Assembly (NCBI GenBank): GCA_903885195.1
Contig: CAISHQ010000176.1
Coordinates: forward strand, 1 to 40,757
Reading direction: 5' to 3'
From: an uncultured Pseudomonadota bacterium
GTDB lineage: Bacteria > Pseudomonadota > Gammaproteobacteria > Steroidobacterales > Steroidobacteraceae
Length of the DNA stretch: 40,757 bases
A model generated the notes under the pieces. The model was not told where the DNA came from and made no database searches. It worked only from the letters and a program-made list of their open reading frames with translations. A program made the position numbers and the translations under genes. Of the stretch, positions 10,852 through 21,893 are shown piece after piece; positions within the stretch are counted from its first letter, which is position 1, and every line of letters starts with the position of its first letter.

Positions 10852-11055
10852 CCTCTGTCCTTGGACCTGAGAGATCGGGCCCACTGACGCGGACCGCTCC
10901 CCTTCGGTGGACCCCGCCGCGGCGCACCGCGTGGGATCACTCTCCAGAATTCGCCTGCGACCCCCCGTTTATTTGCCTGAGCGTTTCCGGGCGGAAACTT
11001 GCGCCTTCGGCGTCTGCCTGACCCGCTTGGCGGGCCCGCAGAACTCTTCGGCAAG
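10852..11055 (-). ncRNA. Tandem glycine riboswitch upstream of gcvT
   Basis: Two glycine aptamers can be read on the minus strand. The promoter-proximal one (about 11050-10965) shows GAAGAGTTC, then GCCGAAGGCGCAA, then AAACGCTCAGGCAAATAAAC. The distal one (about 10952-10852) shows CTGGAGAGTGATCCC, then CACCGAAGGGGAGC, then ATCTCTCAGGTCCAAGGACAGAGGGG. These are the conserved glycine-aptamer core elements, in the usual order, next to a gcv operon. The second aptamer runs straight into the terminator stem. This element fills most of the 354-bp gap between gcvT and the divergent DUF885 gene. Confidence 0.9.
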
Positions 11056-11078
11056 GTCGGAATGCGCGAACGGGTGAG

Positions 11079-19667: not shown

Positions 19668-19862
19668 GGGCGTCGCCTGCGGTGTTCGATAGTGGATCGG
19701 GTTACCTCTCGACCCTAAGTTGGAACGCCCCGGGGCACCAGGGCTTGCTGCCAGCACTGTGCATGTCCGCCACGAGCGGAAAGCCTTACCTGGCGCAGTC
19801 CGCCCCACTTGTTGCTCTGTGTCGAGAGCAACGGTTCACACCGGCACAGGCGGGCGACGCCC
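19668..19862 (+). ncRNA. ssrS: 6S RNA (SsrS)
   Basis: The gap between zapA and ygfA holds a 195-nt element closed by a perfect 13-bp stem: GGGCGTCGCCTGC (19668-19680) with GCGGGCGACGCCC (19850-19862), including one G-U pair. Inside are the expected long imperfect hairpin with internal bulges (CTCTCGACC opposite GTCGAGAG) and the AAGCCTTA-like segment near 19783. Length, closing stem and the zapA-ssrS-ygfA position all match 6S RNA, which binds the sigma-70 holoenzyme and mimics an open promoter in stationary phase. End points are set by the stem and may be off by a few bases. Confidence 0.88.
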
Positions 19863-19899: not shown

Positions 19900-20487
19900 T
19901 TGAGCGACCGGGCGATCGAGCGCAAACGCCTGCGTGCCGCACGCGCGGCGCTCCCTCCCGCCGCGCGTCGCGCGGCGGAGCGGGCCATCGCCCGCCACCT
20001 CGAACACAGTGGCCTGATCGCACCCGGTTCCCGGATCGCCGGCTATGCCGCCTTGGGCAGCGAGATCGGCTGCGCGCCGGCGCTACGACTGGCCGAACAG
20101 CGACACTGCCGCATCTACCTGCCGCGCATCACGCACTTTCGCAAGCGCCAGATGCGCTTTGTCGCCGTGACCGGCCGCTGGCAACGCAACCGCTACGGTA
20201 TCGCCGAGCCGCAGGGCGCGGCCTACGCCCCGCTTCGCAGCCTGCACGTCATCCTCGTACCGCTCGTCGGCGTCGATGCCCGCGGCAATCGGCTCGGCAT
20301 GGGAGCAGGGTTCTATGACCGCGCCCTAGGCCGGCTGCACGTGGGTGCCTGGCGTCGACCGCGACTCGTCGGCATCGCCCATTCCTGCCAGCAAGTGGCG
20401 CAACTTCAGGCGCAGCCCCATGACGTGCCGCTCGATGCGCTCGTCACCGAGCGCGGCATCGTTTTCTTTCGCGGAGACATTGCATGA
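19900..20487 (+). CDS. ygfA: 5-formyltetrahydrofolate cyclo-ligase
   Basis: A 195-residue enzyme that converts 5-formyl-THF to 5,10-methenyl-THF with ATP. IERKRLRAARAALP at the N terminus, IYLPRI, RYGIAEP and GMGAGFYDRALG are the family blocks. The frame is open back to 19720, but that part lies inside 6S RNA and is not conserved, so TTG at 19900 is chosen; GGAG lies about 10 nt upstream. Processing of the 6S transcript with ygfA is known in E. coli and is plausible here. The stop overlaps the EVE gene (ATGA). Confidence 0.9.
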   Translation: MSDRAIERKRLRAARAALPPAARRAAERAIARHLEHSGLIAPGSRIAGYAALGSEIGCAPALRLAEQRHCRIYLPRITHFRKRQMRFVAVTGRWQRNRYGIAEPQGAAYAPLRSLHVILVPLVGVDARGNRLGMGAGFYDRALGRLHVGAWRRPRLVGIAHSCQQVAQLQAQPHDVPLDALVTERGIVFFRGDIA

Positions 20488-20954
20488 ATCACTGGCTGAT
20501 GAAATCCGAGCCCTCGACCTTCAGCATCGACGATCTGGCGGCGGCATCGAAACGCACGACGTGTTGGGACGGCGTACGCAATTACCAGGTGCGGAACATG
20601 CTGCGCGACCAATTCGCGGTCGGCGATCTCGCCTTCATGTACCACTCGAGCTGCCCGGAGCCGGGCATCGTCGGCGTGATGAAGGTGGTCAAGACCGGTT
20701 ATCCCGACAGCACCGCGTTCGATCCGAAACACGATCACTACGATGCGGCATCGACACCGCAACAGCCACGCTGGTACATGGTCGATGTGCGTCTGGAACA
20801 GCGTTTTTCCCGAGTGATTACGCTCGATGAACTGCGTCGCCATGCAACGAAACAACTGCGTGGTTTGCTCATCCTGCAACGCGGCAATCGTCTCTCCATC
20901 ACGCCGGTGAGTGACGATCACTGGCGCCTCATCATGTCGCTCGCCACTGCGTGA
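20484..20954 (+). CDS. EVE domain-containing protein
   Basis: A 156-residue PUA-like EVE-domain protein (THYN1 family). It is recognised by NHWLMKSEPSTFSIDDL, TCWDGVRNYQVRNMLRD, GDLAFMYHSSCPEPGIVGV and RWYMVDV, which form the pocket for a modified base. EVE domains bind modified cytosine or other modified bases in DNA or RNA; bacterial single-domain members are proposed to act on modified RNA. The ATG overlaps the ygfA stop. Family is secure, ligand unknown. Confidence 0.92.
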   Translation: MNHWLMKSEPSTFSIDDLAAASKRTTCWDGVRNYQVRNMLRDQFAVGDLAFMYHSSCPEPGIVGVMKVVKTGYPDSTAFDPKHDHYDAASTPQQPRWYMVDVRLEQRFSRVITLDELRRHATKQLRGLLILQRGNRLSITPVSDDHWRLIMSLATA

Positions 20955-20991
20955 GTGGTGCGCGCGAGGTCACGCGCGTACACCCCCTTGC

Positions 20992-21019
20992 TTGTTTTTT
21001 GCAATCGCGTGTATATACT
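20992..21019 (+). promoter_or_regulatory. Promoter of the Lys/Ala micro-gene
   Basis: TTGTTT (20992-20997) and TATACT (21014-21019) are separated by 16 bp in a locally AT-rich stretch. Initiation near 21026 would give a leader of about 28 nt containing the GGAG site. Both boxes are one or two bases from consensus. Confidence 0.65.
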
Positions 21020-21053
21020 CACCCTCGGACTAACCCGTAACTGGAGAAATACC

Positions 21054-21116
21054 ATGGCTAAGGCCAAGAAGAAGGCGAAGGCAAAGGCTAAGAAGAAAGC
21101 CGCCAAGAAGAAGTAA
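21054..21116 (+). CDS. 20-residue Lys/Ala micro-protein
   Basis: An ATG at 21054 opens a 20-codon frame, MAKAKKKAKAKAKKKAAKKK, ending in TAA. It has 12 Lys and 7 Ala and no other residue after Met. GGAG lies 7 nt before the ATG, a promoter lies upstream at 20992-21019, and hairpins follow the stop, so it looks like a complete monocistronic gene. Eleven of twelve Lys codons are AAG. The composition is that of histone H1 or AlgP-type tails, which suggests binding to DNA, RNA or another polyanion; this is inference. An alternative is a leader peptide controlling rpiA. It is easily missed by gene finders because of its length. Confidence 0.7.
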   Translation: MAKAKKKAKAKAKKKAAKKK

Positions 21117-21134
21117 GATTCCTTGAGAATCTTC

Positions 21135-21161
21135 GGCGGGCTCGATGCAAATCAGCCCGCC
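21135..21161 (+). terminator. GC hairpin after the micro-gene
   Basis: GGCGGGCT and AGCCCGCC form a perfect 8-bp stem with an 11-nt loop, starting 18 nt after the micro-gene stop. It is followed by GTCTTCTAAAAA without a true T-run, so it may stabilise the 3' end and not terminate by itself. Confidence 0.5.
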
Positions 21162-21173
21162 GTCTTCTAAAAA

Positions 21174-21207
21174 GAGGATGCCCGCGAAAGCGGGCATCTT
21201 CGTTTCT
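21174..21207 (+). terminator. Intrinsic terminator between the micro-gene and rpiA
   Basis: GATGCCCGC and GCGGGCATC form a perfect 9-bp stem closed by a GAAA tetraloop and followed by TTCGTTTCT. It lies 27-49 nt before the rpiA ATG, so it should separate rpiA from upstream transcription. Confidence 0.75.
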
Positions 21208-21233: not shown

Positions 21234-21893
21234 ATGAGTGATCCGCAACACGGCAAGCGTCTCGCTGCTGCCGCAGCGCTCGAGTTCGTTACCGAAGGCA
21301 TGATCGTCGGCGTCGGTACGGGCTCCACCGTCAATCTCTTCATCGATGCCCTCGCCGCCCGACGCGATCGAATCGCCGGCGCTGTGTCGAGCTCGGAAGC
21401 CTCGACCGCACGGCTGAAGGCAGCCGGCATCGAGGTACTCGAACTCAATCGCACCGGCGATCTCGAACTCTACGTCGACGGTGCCGACGAGACCGACGAA
21501 CACCGGCGACTCATCAAGGGTGGCGGCGCCGCGCTGACGCGCGAGAAGGTGGTCGCTGCCGCCTCGCGCAAGTTCGTCTGCATCGTCGACGATTCGAAAC
21601 TCGTCGATGTGCTCGGTCGTTTCCCACTGCCCGTCGAAGTGATTCCGATGGCGCGCTCCTACGTGGCACGGCAACTCACCCGCCTTGGCGGTCAACCCGT
21701 GTGGCGCGAGAACGTGACCACCGACAACGGTAACCAGATCCTCGATGTGCATGGCCTGCGCATCCTTGACCCCCCTGCGCTCGAGACTGCAATCAACGGC
21801 ATCGCGGGTGTCGTCACGGTGGGGCTGTTTGCCCATCGACGTGCGGACGTCGTGATCATCGGCGGCCCGACGGGCATCCGTCGCCTCGAGTGA
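21234..21893 (+). CDS. rpiA: Ribose-5-phosphate isomerase A
   Basis: A 219-residue enzyme of the non-oxidative pentose phosphate pathway that interconverts ribose 5-phosphate and ribulose 5-phosphate. [13 protein letters not shown], the catalytic DGADETDE and [11 protein letters not shown] are all present. GGGAGAAAACGC precedes the ATG with a good Shine-Dalgarno. rpe, the matching epimerase, is also in this window but in another unit. Confidence 0.96.

Follow-up and report, generated by a model that had tools for sequence, protein, structure and literature searches.

A 20-codon lysine/alanine gene between the EVE-domain gene and rpiA

The window (the whole 40,757-nt stretch of Steroidobacteraceae DNA that was analysed) carries, in this order, genes for ZapA, 6S RNA, 5-formyl-THF cyclo-ligase (FAU), an EVE-domain protein, a lysine/alanine-rich (K/A) peptide and RpiA. 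The 6S RNA is located between zapA and the FAU gene (19671-19860, forward strand). The K/A gene (21054-21116, forward strand) is flanked upstream by the EVE-domain gene (20484-20954, forward strand; Pfam PF01878, 174.5 bits), a conserved neighbour in relatives, and downstream by rpiA (21234-21893, forward strand; PF06026, 198 bits), which has its own ribosome-binding site past the terminator of the K/A gene. This is exactly the gammaproteobacterial ZapA-6S RNA-FAU-EVE-(RpiA) neighbourhood set out in the main text of PMC7641849. Looking for "histone" in the same main text turned up neither an H1-like nor a K/A gene in the EVE-RpiA interval, where the window has one. In the open literature, we found no report of this peptide, nor of any H1-like gene located between EVE and rpiA, and the K/A gene has previously gone unremarked. 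Elsewhere in the window, a glycine riboswitch aptamer (Rfam RF00504, 45.4 bits) lies on the reverse strand at 10955-11061.

The gene and its signals, all on the forward strand, span positions 20987-21205. The frame (MAKAKKKAKAKAKKKAAKKK) consists of 12 lysines, 7 alanines and the initial methionine, is closed by a TAA stop and has orthologues in relatives. A putative -35 element, TTGTTT (20992-20997), overlaps a conserved CTTGCTTG block (20987-20994) that relatives keep as CTTGCTTG or TTGCTGG; the exact hexamer is uncertain. After a 16-nt spacer comes the -10 hexamer TATACT (21014-21019), within the region TGTATATACTC (21010-21020). When promoter and leader are aligned across 28 loci, distant ones included, all 28 carry GTATATACT without change. 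The leader motif CGGACTAACCCG (21026-21037) lies at the presumed transcript start, placed from its distance to the -10 hexamer, and is followed by a ribosome-binding site, GGAG (21043-21046), 7 nt upstream of the ATG and conserved in relatives. Downstream of the stop, a first hairpin (CGGCGGGCT/AGCCCGCCG, 21134-21162) varies in sequence, and relatives have compensatory changes in it. It is followed by an intrinsic terminator (21174-21205), with the stem GAGGATGCCCGC-GAAA-GCGGGCATCTTC at 21174-21201 followed by GTTT, the T-rich tail reaching 21205. The 189-nt RNA of the gene folds far more stably than shuffled sequences (z = -5.5). The initial annotation had described a promoter, a GGAG, a 20-residue frame, a TAA stop and two hairpins here, all of which direct reading confirmed. 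A sigma-70 pattern scan that needed at least 9 of 12 matches did not report this promoter.

The frame is open upstream as far as a GTG at 20955, which would give a 53-residue form. We rejected this start and assign the start to the ATG at 21054, because the GTG precedes the promoter and because the 5' UTR lengths of relatives differ by non-multiples of three. The CGGACTAACCCG leader is near-invariant in the family, and sister families instead have GGGTACCC- or GGTTAACC-like palindromes.

The K/A gene is conserved in nearly all Steroidobacteraceae

We searched related genomes with a sequence-only model (R1) built from the promoter, the leader or 5' UTR and the ATGGC start, with the body of the frame left out. 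R1 matched in 180 of 200 family genomes, including 110 of the 114 of good quality, and in 24 of 25 genera. Matches were single copy with few exceptions, and the misses were mostly incomplete genomes. All 30 own-family loci, like the loci labelled Steroidobacteraceae, have a K/A mini frame on the same strand just upstream of rpiA; some loci from separate searches come from the same genome. Peptides in the family loci read are 14-30 residues long, and none of these frames is broken. The initial annotation had proposed a search for short K/A frames before rpiA in relatives; such frames do recur there, and the frameshifts or stops that it had named as counter-evidence were not seen in the family loci read. 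Its view that the frame is no product of chance also holds, given the recurrence of the promoter-leader-start unit in the family and a terminator-like hairpin downstream of the stop in 145 of 148 loci.

Together with those of sister lineages, 31 distinct mini peptides of up to 37 residues were collected, with fractions of 0.56 lysine, 0.28 alanine and 0.05 threonine. Same-length comparisons gave 977 synonymous and 761 nonsynonymous codon differences, against 33 synonymous and 126 nonsynonymous possible single changes (plus 12 to stops), a ratio of about 0.2 that is crude, as pairs are not independent and the repeat phase is ignored. Pairs with identical peptides and third-position-only differences (0, 0, 376) were set aside as circular for lysine and alanine codons. 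The 20-codon frame is a real gene under selection. Cultured carriers include Povalibacter uvarum DSM 26723, Peristeroidobacter soli and Steroidobacter agaridevorans (loci L039, L041 and L051). Gene callers normally skip proteins so short, so the K/A family is likely to have escaped notice.

Long lysine-rich proteins occupy the same slot beyond the family

Beyond the family, R1 matched in 146 of 196 order-level and 32 of 369 class-level genomes, the latter a lower bound as the large searches used strict filters. A phylum-wide sample yielded two matches in 299 genomes; each belongs to the same class as the window and has a K-rich frame after it. Of 30 loci read at the class level, 29 have a K-rich frame that begins exactly at the predicted start; at the order level the figure is 39 of 40. 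Two weak matches (L142 and L209) were discarded, as no K-rich frame follows either. The frames beyond the family encode repeat proteins rich in lysine, alanine, arginine and threonine, with a lysine fraction of 0.35-0.62 and a length of 56-209 residues in nearly all complete cases (for example, 169 in L117, 150 in L064 and 188 in L078). The EVE-domain gene lies upstream of many long forms. Downstream, rpiA is present within the order and absent from many class-level loci (L119, L120, L122-L124, L126, L129-L134, L136 and L137), and in L138 it is on the opposite strand. No K/A gene was found before rpiA in the Stenotrophomonas, Luteimonas, Lysobacter, Alteromonas or Vibrio loci examined.

Judged by sequence, the mini and long forms share slot, orientation, predicted promoter, leader, start and terminator, and differ in repeat number. 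The window's gene has the same slot, orientation, promoter and leader as the H1-like gene of the EVE-rpiA slot, and the interpretation that fits best is that its peptide is an orthologue of a bacterial H1-like protein, reduced to miniature size. This orthology rests on slot and promoter, as the sequence of low-complexity repeats cannot itself prove homology.

Mapped onto a tree of RpiA from 106 loci, the mini label requires seven changes, at least four of which are forced by well-supported branches. In family f3, mini forms are nested among long ones (L180, 20 residues; L085, 23; L100, 22; L185, 37). Contraction (or re-expansion) has therefore taken place on more than one occasion. The nesting of family f186 inside the window's family is based on long branches and is doubtful. 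The MAG contig of L085, labelled Rheinheimera, agrees with L181, from a genome of the window's order, in promoter, peptide and distance to rpiA, and the label looks wrong.

Likeness to histone H1-like proteins

We compared the peptides with known protein families. The window peptide has no Pfam or NCBIfam match. Three long orthologues score against Pfam HC2 (PF07382) with hmmscan, at 32.9 (L064), 33.8 (L078) and 37.4 bits (L188), below the curated cut-off of 40, and other long orthologues have no Pfam match; neither form can therefore be safely placed in HC2 as Pfam defines it. The L188 locus reaches 61.3 bits in a six-frame genome search (G426:C25) but 37.4 as the exact protein. The best scores against the NCBIfam families hist_H1_lk_Burk and histone_lik_HC2 are 34.0 and 24.9 bits (both L078), against cut-offs of 80 and 135. 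The composition is H1-like in the loose sense, with lysine and alanine dominant, threonine, valine, serine and proline minor, KKKAA-like units and a length set by repeat number.

A six-frame profile search of the window's own genome gave no other HC2 match. A second DNA match there, on contig C93, falls in the K/A tail of ribosomal protein L17; it covers a short segment of similar composition and is not a paralogue. This L17 (rplQ, after rpoA; L002, 1114-1572) has a long C-terminal tail of lysine, alanine and arginine, whose DNA is 91% identical to the mini gene over 33 nt.

The product of the K/A gene is a free-standing H1-tail-like protein of minimal size, shorter than routine annotation picks up. 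The initial annotation had compared it with H1- and AlgP-type tails by composition; synteny and the shared promoter now tie the gene to full-length H1-like proteins.

Alternative explanations and proposed function

A short K-rich frame with hairpins and a terminator directly upstream of rpiA could be a lysine-codon leader peptide that controls rpiA by attenuation. The initial annotation had held this to be unlikely, and we reject it as very improbable. An intrinsic terminator separates the K/A gene from rpiA. The arms of hairpin 1 change (for example, G-C to A-U at columns 27/50 and C-G to U-A at columns 25/52) independently of the terminator arms GCCCGC/GCGGGC, which are invariant; therefore neither a 1:3 nor a 2:4 alternative pairing has been kept. 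The same promoter drives proteins of 56-209 residues, many without rpiA downstream or with rpiA on the opposite strand. Neither mutually exclusive hairpins that include the terminator nor a regulated gene downstream in all members was found, and to our knowledge RpiA has no link to lysine. The K/A gene is far shorter than its relatives, as a decaying, functionless remnant of an H1-like gene might be, but the gene is too well kept for this: promoter, ribosome-binding site and terminator persist in 24 of 25 genera and synonymous changes are favoured in the frame, so we likewise give the remnant reading next to no credence. It is also improbable, though somewhat less so, that the functional product is the structured transcript of about 180 nt, acting as a dual-function or regulatory small RNA with the peptide secondary. 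Such a role would fit the very stable fold, the near-invariance of CGGACTAACCCG in the family and a consensus structure of 15 loci in which 9 of 21 predicted pairs, hairpin 1 among them, have compensatory changes. However, several genera lack hairpin 1 or have a short one (for example L008, L012, L017 and L022, where the terminator starts 23-25 nt past the stop) whereas the coding frame is always kept, third codon positions vary freely, and the long orthologues have no such 3' UTR.

We consider it likely that the gene is an independently transcribed unit for a 20-residue polycation, a mini orthologue of HC2- and AlgP-tail-type proteins, that binds polyanions by charge. The peptide would be disordered and would behave like a single H1-tail repeat unit or a pair of them, its dense positive charge binding a polyanion, probably DNA, RNA or another such partner, with DNA and/or RNA the most likely. 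This prediction is made because of the charge and the literature on relatives. The peptide might act much as a polyamine does, though encoded by a gene, and would then both neutralise nucleic acid and bridge it. If local charge density suffices, length would matter little, and the repeat number could for this reason drop to a minimum in whole lineages. At cellular salt, nucleic acid binding by the 14-17-mers, which have 9-10 lysines, may be weak.

The main rival keeps the same gene and ancestry but places the main target outside the nucleoid, in polyphosphate, ribosomal RNA, ribosome precursors or the role of a general soluble counter-ion. AlgP, a well-studied H1-like protein, localises to polyphosphate granules (PMC9239181), and a non-covalent lysine-polyP interaction is described (PMC12077175). 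A gene for a polyphosphate kinase is present in the window's own genome, three genes of the HU/IHF family already exist there, and the G+C-rich stretch downstream of the -10 element may resemble that of growth-rate-controlled promoters. However, polyP kinase is widespread, and among the activities of H1-like tails DNA binding is the best documented. We regard polyP or ribosome-related binding as unlikely, if well worth weighing, and favour DNA/RNA binding.

With nucleic acid as the favoured target, a chromatin- or RNA-organising function may be carried by stand-alone K/A peptides of 14-30 residues in the whole family and, separately, in some sister-family lineages, a proposal that we judge to be evenly poised. 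If true, no H1-type proteins smaller than these would be known; they would in effect be polyamines encoded by genes, and an H1-like tail would be reducible to one or two repeat units yet still be kept. The locus offers a natural length series of H1-like polycations, from 14 to 209 residues at the same locus and promoter, that bears on how much disordered tail a cell needs and on how charge alone organises nucleic acid.

Comparison with known systems

Hc2 of Chlamydia (PF07382) and the H1-like proteins of Burkholderia, such as BpH1, consist of K/A-rich repeats without a folded domain and vary in length through repeat number, as here. The number of K-rich pentamers sets the length of Hc2, which binds both DNA and RNA (PMC2848022). 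Hc2 is 165-237 residues long (PMC2848022) whereas the family peptides have 14-30, the long orthologues of sister families match PF07382 weakly and below its curated cut-off, and our comparison with Hc2 and BpH1 gave no sign of a common locus with the K/A gene. The C-terminal KPAA-repeat domains of AlgP and PhaF in Pseudomonas are disordered, DNA-binding polycations rich in lysine and alanine, which the window peptide resembles in composition; DNA binding is documented both for the C-terminus of AlgP and for peptides made of KPAA repeats (PMC9239181). Those repeats are joined to an N-terminal domain, have proline in most units and form a 154-residue region (PMC9239181), whereas the K/A peptide stands alone. 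In charge and size range, with 9-17 lysines each, the mini peptides are like synthetic oligolysines and natural polyamines. Plasmid DNA packaging by oligolysines is stable with at least 16 lysines and less so with 8 (PMC4991294). Unlike oligolysines and polyamines, the K/A peptides are gene-encoded and alanine-spaced.
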